DNA from: a virus
DNA: 22,357 nucleotides
Reading direction: 5' to 3' (one strand)
Virus record (IMG/VR): IMGVR_UViG_3300046532_001643
Span: 1 to 22,357 of that record
Part shown: piece by piece, positions 16,444 to 21,902 of the stretch
Numbering within the stretch: position 1 is the stretch's first letter
Layout of the letters: every line of letters starts with the position of its first letter
The notes under the pieces: generated by a model
The model's input: the letters and a program-made list of their open reading frames with translations, nothing else
The model's database searches: none
Told to the model about the DNA's origin: nothing
Made by a program: the position numbers and the translations under genes

Positions 16444-18534
16444 ATGATATTTGGTTATTTTACATTGTTATCCGCTTTGATTATCAGTGGTATAGCGGCA
16501 TACTATTCTATTATTGGTTTGACTGCTATATTTGCGGCGGCACTGATTCCTATTATAGTCATGGGCGTTGCCCTTGAACTTGGTAAGGTGGTGTCTGCCG
16601 TTTGGTTACATCGAAATTGGCACCATGCTAAAGCGTGGATGCGGGGGTACTTAACTTTCGCAACTATTATATTAATGTTCATTACATCAATGGGCATTTT
16701 TGGTTTTCTAAGTAAAGCACACATTGAACAAACTAGTGCAAGTCAAGAAAGTGTAGCTCAAATTGAACGGCTAACAACTGAAATTAATCGACAAACTAGT
16801 ATCATCACTCGATCTGATGAACAAATTAAGAAACTAGAAACTACAGGCACAGGATCAGACGCAAACATTCAGAGTCAAATTGACAAAGAACAACAACGTA
16901 TTGATAGTGCCTATAATCGTGTTAAGCCTGCAATTGTTGAACAACAAAAAATCATCGATTCGCAGGGAGGTATTTACAAAGACGAACTTACTAAGATTGA
17001 CGATGAACTAGCACAACTACAAAAGTTTATCGCCAATGGTGAAATTAAAAAAGCACAACAAATGGTAGGTGCTAAAGCAGATGGTGCTTTTGGATCAAAA
17101 ACTGCTCTAGCATTTACTACCTTTCAAGAACGTAAGAAAGGAGAACGAACAGCTTTAATATCAAAAATTGAAAACTCAATTAATAATAGTAGAGCTATAG
17201 TTGCTCGTGAAGAGATTCAACGTATACGAAAATCGGTAGAGACAGAAATTGCTAATAGTAATGCACTAATACAAAAATTACGTGAGAAAATTTCAGCCGC
17301 AAACAGTAATACAAATATTGAAACTCGAGTTGACAACTATAGGGATAAGATTTCAGTTGCAAATAAAGAAATCGATACCTTAACACAAGAGAAGTATGCA
17401 CTTGAAGCAGAATATCGTAAGCTCGAAGCCGAAGTGGGTCCTGTTAAATATATTGCAGAATTCATATACGGCGAAGACGCAAACCGTAATATGCTTGAAG
17501 ATGCAGTACGATGGGTTATTATTATACTTGTATTAGTGTTTGATCCATTAGCTATATGTTTAATCTTGGCCGGTACACAACAGATACTGTGGTGTAGGGA
17601 AGAACAAGCACGTATTATTCACCCAACTCCACCTGATCCACCTGTGTCTCCGGACGACGACCCAGATCATCTTAACGATCCAATCAATGAAGATGATCAC
17701 GAAACTAAACGGGACGGAGACCATCAAGCAAAACATCTAGACGCCGATGAAGGTCCCGGCGACAAAAAGGACCTTCAAACTAAGATTGAAAGGGCAGATT
17801 CGGATTTAATACTGGCCGCGGAACTAGCCGCTGAACTTGAAGACCGTAATTCAATTGCAGAAGCTAGGATTGTTGAACTGGAGAGCGCCTTGGCGCATGC
17901 GGCATCAGTTGAGGAAGAATCTTCAATTATAACTGAGGAAGAACCTTCAATTATTGGAACTGAGGAAATAGTTCCACTGGGTACAGGGCACGAAACGTTT
18001 GTTTTCCCCGATGAAATAGTTAATGACACAGTCACACCTACGGTAGAAACAGAACCATCTGACGAGAGTGTAGTGCTAGACGAAACAACAGAACAGTACG
18101 AAGAATCAAATGATTTGGATAGAGACAGTTCAGCAACAACTAGCCCACTTTCAGAAGACGAAATAGAAAAAATTGAACTACAGTTAAAAAATGTAAACTA
18201 CCAAAAAGGTAGTGGTAAAGTTTTAACTGTAAGTCCATTGTTTCATGCAGAAGCAGATAATAAGAGCTTAATTGCTAGTGGATTTGGAAGTGTGTTTCCA
18301 ACAAACCAGTTTAAAGGTGATATGTTTTTAAGAACAGACTATCTACCTAGTAAGTTGTTTAAGTACAATGGAAACAATTGGTTTGAAACATCAAAAAAAT
18401 TAAGTAGCAGTTATATGTATGACACTAAGTACATAGAATACTTAATTGACAAACTTCAAACTGGTGAATACGAGCTTGAAGATTTAGAAGACCAAGAACA
18501 AGAACAGATTAGAGATTACCTACAGGATGTATAG
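16444..18534 (+). CDS. Large membrane protein with coiled coil and peptidoglycan-binding-like motif
   Basis: This 696-residue protein has hydrophobic segments at about 4-25, 27-52 and 68-90, a long coiled coil (about 95-335), a fourth membrane segment at about 356-378, then a Pro/Asp-rich linker, an acidic helical region and a folded C-terminus. Inside the coiled coil, residues about 199-228 read K-K-A-Q-Q-M-V-G followed by D-G-A-F-G-S-K-T-A-L-A-F and T-T-F-Q, matching the core of peptidoglycan-binding domain 1. Residues 624-650 (K-G-D-M-F-L-R-T-D-Y-L-P, then L-F-K-Y-N-G) resemble a module shared by proteins of marine T4-like phages. AGAGGAGA precedes the ATG. With four membrane segments it is probably an envelope protein made in the infected cell. 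Superinfection exclusion or lysis control are possible roles; neither is shown. Confidence 0.82.
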   Translation: MIFGYFTLLSALIISGIAAYYSIIGLTAIFAAALIPIIVMGVALELGKVVSAVWLHRNWHHAKAWMRGYLTFATIILMFITSMGIFGFLSKAHIEQTSASQESVAQIERLTTEINRQTSIITRSDEQIKKLETTGTGSDANIQSQIDKEQQRIDSAYNRVKPAIVEQQKIIDSQGGIYKDELTKIDDELAQLQKFIANGEIKKAQQMVGAKADGAFGSKTALAFTTFQERKKGERTALISKIENSINNSRAIVAREEIQRIRKSVETEIANSNALIQKLREKISAANSNTNIETRVDNYRDKISVANKEIDTLTQEKYALEAEYRKLEAEVGPVKYIAEFIYGEDANRNMLEDAVRWVIIILVLVFDPLAICLILAGTQQILWCREEQARIIHPTPPDPPVSPDDDPDHLNDPINEDDHETKRDGDHQAKHLDADEGPGDKKDLQTKIERADSDLILAAELAAELEDRNSIAEARIVELESALAHAASVEEESSIITEEEPSIIGTEEIVPLGTGHETFVFPDEIVNDTVTPTVETEPSDESVVLDETTEQYEESNDLDRDSSATTSPLSEDEIEKIELQLKNVNYQKGSGKVLTVSPLFHAEADNKSLIASGFGSVFPTNQFKGDMFLRTDYLPSKLFKYNGNNWFETSKKLSSSYMYDTKYIEYLIDKLQTGEYELEDLEDQEQEQIRDYLQDV

Positions 18535-18910
18535 TAACTTCATTACCCCACCAGATTTTATTGAAGATGATAACCACTCTGTATTACTAGTTGATCCGTC
18601 AGAGGCCGATGTAGTTGAAATATCATTGCTTTGTAAGCAGGTAGGAACAGACTTTAACGTTTACATATACTTAGAACAGTATGATGACTTAAAATGGCTA
18701 GAAGAAGGCTTCAATAGGTCAGATGCAGTGTGTATTAATACACAACCCAACGAAATATCTAAGGTTAAAGACCAATTAGTCGAACACTTTAAATCTCACC
18801 ATTACGGTCCGAAGAGATTCTTGGACATTAACCGTCGCATGGATAATCCAATAGAGTACTTTATCAATTATGTCAAAATTAAATCAACCAGCACATTCAC
18901 TGATCTGTAA
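18527..18910 (+). CDS. Unknown protein, 127 residues
   Basis: No family is recognised. The sequence suggests an alpha/beta fold: S-V-L-L-V-D-P-S-E-A-D-V-V-E-I-S-L-L at about 18-35, then F-N-V-Y-I-Y-L, a W-L-E-E-G-F helix, A-V-C-I-N-T-Q, and a basic segment K-S-H-H-Y-G-P-K-R-F. The alternation of strand and helix vaguely resembles a receiver-like or Rossmann-like protein, but no active-site pattern is convincing. It begins within the last 8 bases of the membrane-protein gene and overlaps the ClpX-like gene by 41 bases, so the three are tightly linked and probably co-translated. Position suggests a partner of either neighbour; function is unknown. Confidence 0.72.
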   Translation: MYSNFITPPDFIEDDNHSVLLVDPSEADVVEISLLCKQVGTDFNVYIYLEQYDDLKWLEEGFNRSDAVCINTQPNEISKVKDQLVEHFKSHHYGPKRFLDINRRMDNPIEYFINYVKIKSTSTFTDL

Positions 18911-20117
18911 TTTTTGTGAGAAAACAAAAAAAGAAGTCAGTAAACTTATTGTCTCCAACGGTGCGGCAATATGCAATGAATGTATAGAGACTTGCTCGGG
19001 TATTCTTACTAACGAGAAGTTTGCCTTGCGGCGACATAAGTCCGGCATTTTAAAGACTCTAGACCCTAAAAAAGTTAAAAAACACCTCGACGAGTACATC
19101 ATTGGCCAAGACGGAGCTAAAGAAGCTATCAGTATAGCTATTATTAATCATTATAAACGATTATTCTTTCCAACTACAATTGAAGTAGAAAAAAGTAATA
19201 TAATAATTCATGGTCCAACTGGCAACGGCAAAACTATGTTAGCCAAGACAGTAGCTAAATTCCTTGAAGTTCCATTTGTTGTTTGTGATGCTACTACATT
19301 AACTGAAGCAGGTTATATAGGCGAAGATGCAACTAGTGTTCTTGAACGTTTAATGGCTGTAGCTGGTGGGGACATCGAGCATGCAGAACGTGGAATTATT
19401 TTCATTGATGAAATTGATAAGATTGGGCGGCAAGCAGATGCTCATGGCAGTATTGGGCGTGACGTTGGTGGAGAAGGTGTGCAACAAAGTCTCCTTAAAA
19501 TAATTGAAGGCGGCGAAGTAAAGATATTGTATGGTGACGGTCATAAAGAAGAATTAGAATTTAACACTAAAGATATATTGTTTATATGTGCCGGTGCATT
19601 TCCTGATCTAGATAAAATTGCAATTAGAAACACAACAGAATCATCAATGGGATTTGGTTCACATCTTCATGCACCCACGGATGAAACTGTTATTCCTAAA
19701 GTTAGAGACTTTGTGCAGTATGGCATGATCCCTGAATTCATGGGACGTTTTCCAATTACAATTCCGGTGTTTGAACTAACAAAAGAAGAGATGCGTTTAG
19801 TATTAACTCAGCCTAAAAATAATCTTATTGAACAATATAATTTTTATTTTGGTGTTGATGATATTATATTAGACTTGACATCAACTGGAATTGATGCTAT
19901 AGTTAGTATAACTAATAAAGAGAAGATTGGCGCACGAGGACTTCGTGCTACGTTAGAAACTGTATTGCAATCTTATATGTTTAATATTATTGAATATAAG
20001 AACGCAAATGTAAGTAAAATTACACTTGACGGTGATAGTATTCTAATAGGGGCAACGGCAAAACTTGAATATCATGAAAAGGATGAAAATGAGTTATCAA
20101 ACACAATTGAACTTTGA
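18870..20117 (+). CDS. clpX: ClpX-like AAA+ unfoldase
   Basis: The 415-residue protein is a full-length ClpX relative. An N-terminal zinc-binding domain has C13-x-x-C16 and C35-x-x-C38, the part that in ClpX binds adaptors. The AAA+ module has Walker A G-P-T-G-N-G-K-T (115-122), pore loop G-Y-I-G (148-151), Walker B I-I-F-I-D-E (176-181), arginine finger R293 (F-M-G-R-F-P) and sensor-2 G-A-R-G-L-R (354-359). The ClpP-docking loop reads M-G-F-G (260-263) where bacterial ClpX has I/L-G-F, so docking to host ClpP remains plausible. The R-K-H entry-pore loop is reduced: only Y-G-D-G-H-K is left near 221-226. It would unfold selected proteins, alone or for host ClpP. No Shine-Dalgarno is seen, so translation is probably coupled to the gene it overlaps. 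Confidence 0.93.
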   Translation: MSKLNQPAHSLICNFCEKTKKEVSKLIVSNGAAICNECIETCSGILTNEKFALRRHKSGILKTLDPKKVKKHLDEYIIGQDGAKEAISIAIINHYKRLFFPTTIEVEKSNIIIHGPTGNGKTMLAKTVAKFLEVPFVVCDATTLTEAGYIGEDATSVLERLMAVAGGDIEHAERGIIFIDEIDKIGRQADAHGSIGRDVGGEGVQQSLLKIIEGGEVKILYGDGHKEELEFNTKDILFICAGAFPDLDKIAIRNTTESSMGFGSHLHAPTDETVIPKVRDFVQYGMIPEFMGRFPITIPVFELTKEEMRLVLTQPKNNLIEQYNFYFGVDDIILDLTSTGIDAIVSITNKEKIGARGLRATLETVLQSYMFNIIEYKNANVSKITLDGDSILIGATAKLEYHEKDENELSNTIEL

Positions 20118-20448
20118 GTTTTACAACGACACAGAAGAACAATATACACTTGATCTTAATAATTCTGGTACTATTAATATAACAGGTTCATATGGCTATA
20201 TCAACACTGGTGCAATTACTATGACCTCAACTACTATGTCGCCATCAATAATTACTCTTGGGCCTTCGACTGCTACATACGATGAACTTGATGTACGTGT
20301 TCTTAAAGTTGACGGGCATGATATTAGCGAAACACTTAGTCTTATTTGTGATAGACTCGCAATATTAGTACGTAATGACCATGAAGAATTCAATGCTCTT
20401 AATGATGCTTACCTAAAATATAAACTTTTAGAGAAATTGGTAAAATAA
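20089..20448 (+). CDS. Unknown protein, 119 residues, conserved C-terminal motif
   Basis: I do not know its function. The ATG at 20089 is preferred over an in-frame TTG at 20065 because AAAAGGA lies just upstream; the gene begins inside the clpX-like gene and overlaps it by 29 bases. The N-terminal half is beta-rich with repeated Thr/Gly/Ser (S-G-T-I-N-I-T-G-S-Y-G-Y-I-N-T-G, M-T-S-T-T-M-S-P-S). The C-terminal part (about 75-119) has V-L-K-V-D-G-H-D-I, then D-R-L-A-I-L-V and A-L-N-D-A-Y-L-K-Y-K-L-L-E-K-L, which I recall as a recurring ending of small proteins in marine T4-like phages. The repeat-like N-terminus suggests a fibre- or virion-type protein, unconfirmed. Confidence 0.75.
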   Translation: MSYQTQLNFEFYNDTEEQYTLDLNNSGTINITGSYGYINTGAITMTSTTMSPSIITLGPSTATYDELDVRVLKVDGHDISETLSLICDRLAILVRNDHEEFNALNDAYLKYKLLEKLVK

Positions 20449-20449
20449 T

Positions 20450-20457
20450 CATAAATA
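20450..20457 (+). promoter_or_regulatory. Late-promoter-like box upstream of hsp20 (CATAAATA)
   Basis: This third exact copy of the octamer found at 7452 and 16085 lies 16 bases upstream of a sigma70-type promoter for the same gene. Together they would allow hsp20 expression both early and late, but a late transcript would carry a longer leader. Confidence 0.45.
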
Positions 20458-20472
20458 ATTTTGTAGTTGCTC

Positions 20473-20503
20473 TTGACTTTTACCGTAAGAATAACTATAT
20501 AAT
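20473..20503 (+). promoter_or_regulatory. sigma70-type promoter of hsp20
   Basis: TTGACT (20473-20478) is followed by TATAAT (20498-20503) at 19 bp or by the overlapping TATATA (20496-20501) at the optimal 17 bp. The predicted start is near 20508-20510, giving a leader of about 55 nt that begins at the first hairpin of the putative thermosensor. Confidence 0.75.
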
Positions 20504-20506
20504 ACA

Positions 20507-20563
20507 AGTAGGATGCTGATAATCAGATCTTACTACATATCTTGCTTATTAAAGGAGAACTAA
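20507..20563 (+). promoter_or_regulatory. ROSE-like RNA thermometer candidate in the hsp20 5' leader
   Basis: Two hairpins can form. Hairpin 1 pairs AGTAGGAT (20507-20514) with ATCTTACT (20527-20534), 8 bp with one G-U pair, topped by a CTG/CAG extension. Hairpin 2 pairs TCTTGCT (20540-20546) with the Shine-Dalgarno AGGAGA (20553-20558) across a 6-nt loop, leaving G20544 unpaired and U43-G55 as a wobble pair. The UUGCU-opposite-AGGA arrangement with a bulged G is the hallmark of ROSE elements, which melt on warming and control small heat-shock genes in alpha- and gammaproteobacteria. Here it precedes an hsp20 gene, the expected target. This is a hand-drawn fold; no energy was calculated. Confidence 0.6.
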
Positions 20564-20564
20564 A

Positions 20565-20999
20565 ATGACAAGAATCACAACCCTCGACCTTCACAAACTC
20601 GCCCCGTATGCACTAGGTTTTAATGACCTATTTAAAGGACTTCAACACCATGTTGAACATCCGGCACAACAAGGGTTTCCACCTTACAACATTCGACAAG
20701 AAGACAACAAGTTCCAAATTGAAATGGCACTTGCCGGCGTAGAACTATCTGACCTTGATATTGAAACTGCCGACAGTGTATTGAGTATTACTCATGCACC
20801 TGAAACCGAAGATGAAAACCACGAGAATACAATTCTACACAGAGGAATTGCAATCCGTAAATTTAGACGTAGCTTTACACTTGCAGAAGATGTAATCGTT
20901 AATGGTGCAAGAATGAAGAACGGTATGTTATATATCGAACTTGAGCAAATTGTTCCTGAAGAAAAGAAACCCAAAAAGATTGCAATTTCTTCTAGTTAA
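20565..20999 (+). CDS. Small heat-shock protein Hsp20 (alpha-crystallin family)
   Basis: This 144-residue protein has the family's layout: a short N-terminal arm (1-38), an alpha-crystallin domain (about 39-130) with Y-N-I-R, E-M-A-L-A-G-V-E-L-S-D-L-D-I-E, the loop R-G-I-A-I-R-K-F-R-R-S-F (93-104) and the signature A-R-M-K-N-G-M-L-Y-I-E-L (115-126), and a C-terminal I-A-I (139-141) of the I-x-I type that links dimers. It is an ATP-independent holdase that keeps unfolding proteins soluble. It is expected to form oligomers in the host cytoplasm. Hsp20 genes are a known feature of marine T4-like phages and may aid virion assembly. The gene has its own sigma70-type promoter, a strong Shine-Dalgarno and a ROSE-like leader, and lies between clpX-like and clpS-like genes. 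Confidence 0.95.
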   Translation: MTRITTLDLHKLAPYALGFNDLFKGLQHHVEHPAQQGFPPYNIRQEDNKFQIEMALAGVELSDLDIETADSVLSITHAPETEDENHENTILHRGIAIRKFRRSFTLAEDVIVNGARMKNGMLYIELEQIVPEEKKPKKIAISSS

Positions 21000-21019
21000 T
21001 AGTATACTCATAAAGTAAA

Positions 21020-21061
21020 ATGTGTACGGAACCTCTTTATATTAATTGGTTCCGTACATAT
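21020..21061 (+). terminator. Long perfect inverted repeat between hsp20 and clpS, possible terminator
   Basis: TGTACGGAACC (21023-21033) and GGTTCCGTACA (21048-21058) are an 11-bp perfect inverted repeat, extendable outward by three weaker pairs, with a 14-nt loop. It lies 24 bases after the hsp20 stop. No T-tract follows, so intrinsic termination would be inefficient; it may instead protect the hsp20 mRNA 3' end or bind a regulator. Confidence 0.5.
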
Positions 21062-21066
21062 ACTAT

Positions 21067-21074
21067 GTTAAATA
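21067..21074 (+). promoter_or_regulatory. Weak late-promoter-like box before clpS (GTTAAATA)
   Basis: The TAAATA core lies just after the inverted repeat and would place a transcript start near 21080, with AGGGG (21089-21093) as Shine-Dalgarno for the ATG at 21103. Only the core matches, so this is tentative. Confidence 0.3.
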
Positions 21075-21102
21075 TAACTATTAAGATTAGGGGTTAAAAA
21101 TA

Positions 21103-21429
21103 ATGTCGTCAGAAGCGTCACCAGACCACGTAGAAGTGGTAAAGCAAAAGACAAAAGTAAAACAGAATGTTAGAGAACCTGTTCGATTTAAAGTTATATA
21201 CATTAATGATGAAGTCACTACAACCGAGTTTGTAGTTGAAACACTCAAAACAATATTTGATTATGACGAACAACCTGCACTAGCACTTACACAAAAGATC
21301 CACGCAGACGGTACAGCGGTAGTAGCAGTATTACCGTTTGAAATGGCAGAGCAAAAAGGTGTCGAGGTTACAGTTTTAGCACGTAACCATGGATTTCCTT
21401 TGCAAGTAAAAATTGAACCGGATAATTAA
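21103..21429 (+). CDS. clpS: ClpS-like N-degron adaptor
   Basis: This 108-residue protein matches ClpS from about residue 28: F-K-V-I-Y-I-N-D-E-V-T-T-T-E-F-V aligns with the E. coli stretch containing N34-D35-D36 and T38, then comes the helix V-E-T-L-K-T-I-F, then K-I-H67 (equivalent to H66) and a C-terminal strand. ClpS binds proteins with destabilising N-terminal residues and delivers them to ClpA/ClpC for ClpP. The pocket residues N35, D36, T39 and H67 are kept, but D36 of E. coli is E37 here and the gatekeeper M40 is T41, which may relax specificity. The first 25 residues form a charged extension. Its nearness to the ClpX-like gene suggests joint action on proteolysis, although ClpS normally does not pair with ClpX. 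Confidence 0.88.
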   Translation: MSSEASPDHVEVVKQKTKVKQNVREPVRFKVIYINDEVTTTEFVVETLKTIFDYDEQPALALTQKIHADGTAVVAVLPFEMAEQKGVEVTVLARNHGFPLQVKIEPDN

Positions 21430-21434
21430 TCAAT

Positions 21435-21902
21435 ATGATATTTTCCAAGATTAAAGCATTACAAGACCAAGGCAAAACAGTAGGTATTACGTTTAGCCAA
21501 TTTGATTTGTTGCATGCAGGTCATGTAGCAATGTTAAGCGAAGCAAAGAACCATTGCGATTATCTTATTGCTGGGTTACAAAATAACGCAGGCATTCGAC
21601 CAGGAAAGAATACCCCAATACAAAGTATAGTTGAACGTCAGATCATGTTAAGTAGTCAGCGGTTTGTTGATGAGATTGTAGTTTATAATACCGAAGATGA
21701 CATTGAAGATATACTACTCACACTTCCAATTAATGTTAGAATTATTGGAATTGAGTATAAAGACAAACCATTTACGGGTCAGGCTGTTTGCATGGATCGT
21801 AATATTAAGATTGTATATAATAGTAGAGACCATAGTTTTAGTAGTTCTAACTTACGACAACGGGTAACACTAATGGAATCAAATATTGAAAAAATTATAT
21901 GA
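21435..21902 (+). CDS. Cytidylyltransferase-like nucleotidyltransferase (HxGH family)
   Basis: This 155-residue protein has the nucleotidyltransferase signature T-F-S-Q-F-D-L-L-H27-A-G-H30, a Rossmann-like core (V-G-I-T-F at the first strand; D-Y-L-I-A-G-L at the second), and the C-terminal S-S-S-N-L-R (136-141), comparable with the I-S-T-T-x-L/I-R motif of glycerol-phosphate and sugar-phosphate nucleotidylyltransferases. It should activate a phosphorylated small molecule with CTP or ATP to give a nucleotide-linked product and pyrophosphate. Candidate substrates are glycerol-3-phosphate, a polyol phosphate or a heptose phosphate; the sequence does not decide. It starts 5 bases after clpS and overlaps the next gene by 17 bases. 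A role in surface glycan or lipid modification of the host is possible. Confidence 0.85.
   Translation: MIFSKIKALQDQGKTVGITFSQFDLLHAGHVAMLSEAKNHCDYLIAGLQNNAGIRPGKNTPIQSIVERQIMLSSQRFVDEIVVYNTEDDIEDILLTLPINVRIIGIEYKDKPFTGQAVCMDRNIKIVYNSRDHSFSSSNLRQRVTLMESNIEKII

Follow-up and report, generated by a model that had tools for sequence, protein, structure and literature searches.

A conserved clpX–hsp20–clpS cassette in jumbo phages and the ROSE-like leader of its hsp20 gene

In bacteria, clpP and clpX form one gene pair and clpS and clpA another. The partners of the adaptor ClpS are the N-domains of ClpA and ClpC, and we know of no case in which ClpS feeds ClpX. Phages are usually thought to borrow the proteolysis and folding machinery of their hosts. 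Separate Clp proteins and Hsp20 have already been reported from jumbo phages (PMC6102473 and PMC7824862), and Hsp20 and two Clp proteases have been noted near bS21 genes (PMC9723584). Here, we analyzed a 22,357-base virus record, IMGVR_UViG_3300046532_001643, over its whole length (hereafter, the window), which carries ribonucleotide reductase and structural-type genes along with a cluster of ClpX-like, Hsp20 and ClpS-like genes that an earlier note had placed at positions 18870–21429. The cluster is real, as confirmed by its open reading frames (ORFs), Pfam assignments and full-length matches. The genes clpX, hsp20 and clpS are intact, full-length and all on the + strand, and the region comprises:

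18870–20117, + strand: ClpX unfoldase, 415 amino acids (aa), with zinc domain, Walker A motif GPTGNGKT, Walker B motif, pore loop GYIGED and ClpP-docking loop MGF
About 20089–20448, + strand: ORF without assigned function, between clpX and hsp20
20565–20999, + strand: Hsp20/alpha-crystallin small heat-shock protein, 144 aa, identified by PF00011, phrog_432 and the solved structure 7ck4
21103–21429, + strand: ClpS N-degron adaptor, 108 aa, with an N-terminal extension, identified by Pfam and solved ClpS structures

Pfam matches were obtained for ClpX (zf-C4_ClpX, 8e-12; AAA_2, 4e-31), Hsp20 (HSP20, 3e-17) and ClpS (ClpS, 4e-22). The window ClpX aligns over its full length with E. coli ClpX (7e-95), the best solved match of Hsp20 is 7ck4 (4e-19), and ClpS aligns with solved ClpS structures.

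The arrangement clpX > hsp20 > clpS is a conserved module of a large group of jumbo phages. Viral contigs were scanned independently with ClpX and with ClpS, each scan yielding 80 loci, and 115 public viral loci share the order and strand of the three genes (60 after dereplication at 90%). When loci were picked by ClpX alone, 69 of 80 contained the full trio in the same order and on the same strand; in the remaining 11 the contig ends less than 1.1 kb past clpX. The cassettes are diverse, with a lowest pairwise ClpX identity of 39%, and the gap between hsp20 and clpS has a median of 60 nucleotides (nt). The earlier note had proposed searching phage genomes for co-occurrence and synteny of the three families, and both were found, in the 60 dereplicated loci as well as in the cultured jumbo phages PA5oct, Atu_ph07 and Phosso, which share the same gene order. 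In Atu_ph07 the trio spans the origin of the record, and in Phosso it is spread over 17 kb. In SCTP-2, the stretch read shows only clpX and clpS of the trio; Paride, Ettore and other cultured phages carry the ClpX of the module. Bacillus phage G has a different arrangement, a clpP–clpX pair without hsp20 or clpS. Sub-lineages with hsp20 and clpS and no clpX within reach were also observed (L092–L097, L100–L113 and L151–L152). Acinetobacter phage MD-2021a (L212, CAKLQH020000005) was rejected as a relative; its ClpX lies amid the bacterial-looking genes tig, clpP, clpX and leuA, and the sequence is probably host DNA.

The pairwise distances of the three proteins are correlated with one another (r 0.65–0.78), and such linked histories make a single ancestral arrangement likely. 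They would also suit a purely passive synteny, in which the order was inherited through low rearrangement with no functional linkage. We consider this very improbable, because the trio stays while its neighbors turn over: among the 60 cassettes, the upstream ORF occurs in 14, a cytidylyltransferase gene in 6, and an ORF like that at window positions 20089–20448 in 4. The latter, which the earlier note had correctly seen between the cluster genes, is found in the subclade of the window only, and for its low count we rejected it as a member of the module. Moreover, chaperone genes enter a slot within the cassette repeatedly, at several places of the tree and with the same leader. This slot, between clpX and hsp20, holds a gene for full-length DnaK in 12 of the 60 cassettes and GroES–GroEL genes in 2; another 2 have their dnaK between hsp20 and clpS. 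On the ClpX tree, the DnaK-bearing loci fall into several separate positions.

The residues on which Clp function depends are retained. The C4 zinc domain, the Walker A and B motifs, the GYVG-type pore-1 loop and the IGF-type ClpP-docking loop ([IML]GF) are present in the window ClpX and in 60/60 homologues. The RKH loop, which serves ssrA-type recognition, has been lost in the subclade of the window (GHK, gapped, in the window itself), and its histidine is retained in 50 of the 60 relatives; this loop is a feature of substrate choice and does not define ClpX. Searches for a phage transfer-messenger RNA (tmRNA) gave sub-threshold matches only, mostly of tRNA size, among them a match of 38.9 bits in one record (L202, G017:68963–69114; gathering score 47). 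In the phage ClpS proteins, N34, D35, T38, E79, E82 and L99 are invariant (69/69) and H66 is kept in 68/69, so that the alpha-amine site (N34, D35 and H66) and the N-degron pocket are maintained in the window and its homologues. The ClpA-contact residues, in E. coli numbering, are likewise preserved: E79 and E82 in all 69, and K84 as lysine in 66 and arginine in 3. At the position of E. coli M62, 63 of the 69 phage homologues have threonine, which may point to a shift in N-degron preference; the window also has threonine at the M40 gate.

These contacts bear on the chain proposed in the earlier note, in which ClpS chooses substrates, ClpX unfolds them and host ClpP cuts them. This chain finds no support, since the partner of ClpS is ClpA or ClpC, the ClpA contacts are kept, and relatives of the window carry both ClpA and ClpP. 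ClpP was found in 20 of 24 whole records searched and in 13 of 15 further records, those of PA5oct, Atu_ph07 and Phosso among them. Several contigs have their clpP genes a few kb 3′ of clpS and on its strand. A Clp_N domain occurs in 12 of the 24 records, every time within a full-length ClpA of 753–768 aa, and the ClpA-bearing records include the nearest relatives of the window (G001 and G003). ClpA is present in nearly all records of at least 228 kb and in all four cultured phages (PA5oct, Atu_ph07, Phosso and SCTP-2). In the relatives of the window, this protein of about 760 aa has a Clp_N domain and two AAA modules, matches E. coli ClpA at 9e-173, and carries the IG[FL] ClpP-docking loop in 12/12 cases. 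The window itself shows neither gene, and ClpA and ClpP of its lineage are inferred from its nearest relatives. The first ClpP (ClpP1) has its Ser-His-Asp triad in 38/38 sequences and keeps the hydrophobic docking pocket. A second, divergent ClpP, often present as well, retains the triad (13/13) and has lost the unfoldase-docking pocket (for example at loci L185, L190, L192, L194 and L195), which suggests a mixed peptidase of two rings, with docking by the ClpP1 ring alone. In PA5oct (L213, 176000–198000), genes for FtsH and a GroES-type chaperonin, DnaJ and a ‘polyubiquitin-like’ ORF lie close to clpP and clpA.

Given that relatives encode a canonical ClpP and a full-length ClpA, the host protease need not be borrowed. 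The alternative is that phage ClpX and ClpS work on the host Clp system, with ClpS retargeting host ClpA, ClpX using host ClpP and Hsp20 holding the substrates, so that host factors are cleared. Conservation of the ClpA-contact residues and of the ClpP-docking loop means that host partners would be usable, host ClpAP has been proposed as the partner of phage ClpS by Iyer et al. 2021 (PMC7824862), and in some records no ClpA or ClpP was found. Against this stand the phage ClpP of most records and the wide occurrence of phage ClpA, and we regard the alternative as unlikely in general. In phages without ClpA or ClpP, the host protease may be redirected.

A further alternative is that the genes are kept together for the bulk synthesis of virion proteins, with ClpX as a remodeling chaperone, Hsp20 as a holdase and little proteolysis. 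In 58 of the 60 cassettes, a homologue of the protein encoded at window positions 16444–18534, whose C-terminus matches virion-structural types, lies 5′ of clpX, and ClpP of PA5oct is flagged in its record as detected by mass spectrometry, both of which fit a role in assembly. An intact ClpP triad, docking loops in every ClpX and an intact degron pocket in ClpS would be superfluous for assembly, however, and this explanation also seems to us improbable.

The gene hsp20 is preceded by a structured leader, for which the window provides the following features:

20473–20478 and 20498–20503, + strand: promoter-like boxes TTGACT and TATAAT with a 19-nt spacer, 5′ of hsp20; similar boxes precede hsp20 in relatives
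20507–20534, + strand: leader hairpin I (AGTAGGAT/ATCTTACT plus CTGA/TCAG), from its fold and covariation in relatives
20542–20557, + strand: ROSE-type motif UUGCU (20542–20546) opposite the Shine-Dalgarno sequence AGGAG (20553–20557); UCUUG can pair with codons 2–3 (CAAGA) too

In 72 of 76 loci the leader consists of hairpin I, with a GCC/GGG-type core, followed by U(U/C)GCU, 3–8 nt, AGGAG and the start codon. In the four exceptions hsp20 directly abuts the upstream gene, and in three of these the leader motif is found 5′ of that gene, dnaK. Hairpin I is well supported: 94% of cells are paired, 9 of 11 pairs show changes on both sides, none of 500 shuffles reached as good a covariation score, and sliding the partner strand abolishes the signal. 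Hairpin II is based on its motif and pairing. The start codon of the phage leaders often pairs with GUCAU or UCUUG. A U(U/C)GCU that blocks the Shine-Dalgarno sequence has been named as the hallmark of ROSE elements; a two-hairpin form has been tested in Pseudomonas ibpA (PMC3669281). The hsp20 leader resembles bacterial ROSE RNA thermometers, with thermosensing a putative property. Upstream, TATAAATA occurs 5′ of hsp20 in 13 cases against 1.6 expected, and fits a T4 late promoter and a sigma-70 -10 box alike. The promoter scan took spacers of 16–18 nt, and the 19-nt-spaced boxes of the window lie outside it and were read from the sequence.

The leader recurs at other chaperone-type genes. A covariance model (R1) was trained on hsp20 leaders only, among them window positions 20486–20572, and was run over 23 whole records. 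In most of them, hsp20 had a strong site; secondary sites lay at groES (G023 and G024), at dnaK (G027) and at a phasin-like gene of 73–92 aa, which has weak Pfam support for phasin and, in several records, lies just 5′ of the second clpP. A phasin-like gene of about 90 aa with a UCGCU-type leader was seen in L240, L242, L243, L246, L247 and L249, about 2.2 kb 5′ of the second clpP in the last three. The model also finds, outside its training set, the leader of hsp20 in Atu_ph07 (5.9e-5) and in PA5oct (0.003); two weak secondary matches in G010 and G028 look like chance. When 61 kb of sequence were searched with 4227 Rfam families, 8 matches reached E up to 1, all of them to ROSE_3 and each at a leader. 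A 721-base stretch of the window gave zero Rfam matches at E up to 1.

Based on these results, clpX–hsp20–clpS is probably the core of a phage-borne proteostasis regulon of the heat-shock/Clp type. The evidence seems to us evenly poised on a wider proposal, namely that the heat-shock regulon of a widespread jumbo phage group is self-sufficient and that in it a ClpS–ClpA–ClpP N-degron pathway, ClpXP and chaperones (Hsp20, DnaK and GroES–GroEL) are linked genome-wide by ROSE-like RNA thermometers. The proteins and their layout were observed; thermosensing, complex formation and substrates are inferred and would combine as follows. Translation of the chaperones would be held down by the leader until the ribosome-binding site is freed by warming or another melting cue. 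Hsp20 and the other chaperones would hold or refold the proteins that are produced in large amounts during late infection, and those that fail to fold would pass to degradation. Phage ClpX and ClpA would dock on phage ClpP, or on host ClpP. ClpS would bind degrons of the N-terminal Leu/Phe/Tyr/Trp type and pass them to the N-domain of ClpA, not to ClpX, leaving other substrates to ClpX–ClpP. Host ClpP or ClpA might still serve, above all in phages without a copy of their own.

Several observations weigh against the proteostasis regulon. Seventeen loci of the ClpS scan with more than 4 kb of upstream sequence have hsp20 and clpS without clpX; in four whole records of this type, none has a ClpX zinc domain, and ClpP was found in two and ClpA in one. 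No ClpA was found in the G013 record, and the presence counts for ClpA and ClpP come from records that may be incomplete. The Leu/Phe transferase Aat was found in 0 of 24 records, which bears on the source of the N-degrons. Every ROSE_3 score is below the gathering score of 43 bits (best, 35.2 bits, E 4.6e-4), and that of the window leader is weak, at 13.4 bits; we therefore name the element ‘ROSE-like’ only. In folding predictions at 20 °C, the start codon is unpaired with a probability of 0.25, against 0.51 with shuffled upstream sequence, and it is more hidden at every temperature. The predicted opening on warming is similar for leaders and shuffled controls, hence our conditional wording on thermosensing. 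Both the Rfam scores and this thermal behavior would agree with a general translation-control hairpin of these phages that does not sense temperature. We find that explanation doubtful, as the model sites lie genome-wide almost only at chaperone-type genes, and as hairpin I and the U(U/C)GCU variants agree with the ROSE elements with two hairpins that were tested in Pseudomonas (PMC3669281).

Further features surround the cassette in the window. The gap between hsp20 and clpS contains an inverted repeat, and intergenic stems of at least 7 bp occur at this place in 35 of 45 relatives:

21023–21058, + strand: 11-bp inverted repeat in the hsp20–clpS gap, without a T run (fold z -6.2)

An ORF of unassigned function (18527–18910) overlaps the start of clpX by 41 nt, an overlap preserved in close relatives. 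The 696-aa protein encoded at 16444–18534 has N-terminal hydrophobic segments, a coiled-coil-like middle and a C-terminus of virion-structural type. A cytidylyltransferase-like gene (21435–21902) lies 5 nt 3′ of clpS and is kept in close relatives only. A scan of genome contigs for the host of the window yielded a single 4.4-kb contig of a Bacteroidetes metagenome-assembled genome, which is insufficient for naming a host.

If the proposed regulon is correct, a conserved phage set of unfoldases, peptidase, adaptor and chaperones that share RNA control would place protein quality control within the virus's own program. Such phage-run quality control would be relevant to the infection of heat-stressed or slow-growing hosts. 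Replication in dormant P. aeruginosa has been reported for Paride (PMC10761892). Cultured relatives (PA5oct, and Paride, Ettore and others via their ClpX) make the module testable now.

Within the open-licence literature, we found no prior description of the module or of ROSE elements in phages, which is not proof of novelty, and a term search of texts on MIJ3 and Paride and of a 2026 jumbo phage review returned no mention of Clp. Among described systems, Atu_ph07 (PMC6102473) and other jumbo phages (PMC7824862) combine ClpX, ClpA, ClpP, ClpS and Hsp20 in one phage; the available portions of these papers report the genes separately and describe no cassette, chaperone slot or leader. The moraphages (PMC12619734) are large aquatic phages with DnaK, DnaJ and Hsp20 and a core ClpA, a likeness by description only, and the available part of that paper describes neither a clpX–hsp20–clpS cassette nor an RNA leader. 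In PA5oct (MK797984), a stretch of 26 kb holds clpX, bS21, hsp20, clpS, ftsH, clpP, dnaJ and clpA, and hsp20 bears the leader; the genes are annotated one by one, and no open-licence paper was found that treats them as a module. Like the phage leaders, ROSE_3 (RF02523) and Pseudomonas ibpA (PMC3669281) have two hairpins with U(U/C)GCU opposite the Shine-Dalgarno sequence, 5′ of a small heat-shock gene. The phage elements differ in occurring also on dnaK, groES and the phasin-like gene, in an often paired start codon and in scores below gathering. Compared with E. coli ClpAPS and ClpXP, the system is phage-encoded, links clpX to hsp20 and clpS, has threonine at the M62 position of ClpS in most homologues and lacks a detected Aat in the records searched, whereas the protein families are the same and their catalytic, pore, docking, degron-binding and ClpA-contact residues are kept in the phages.

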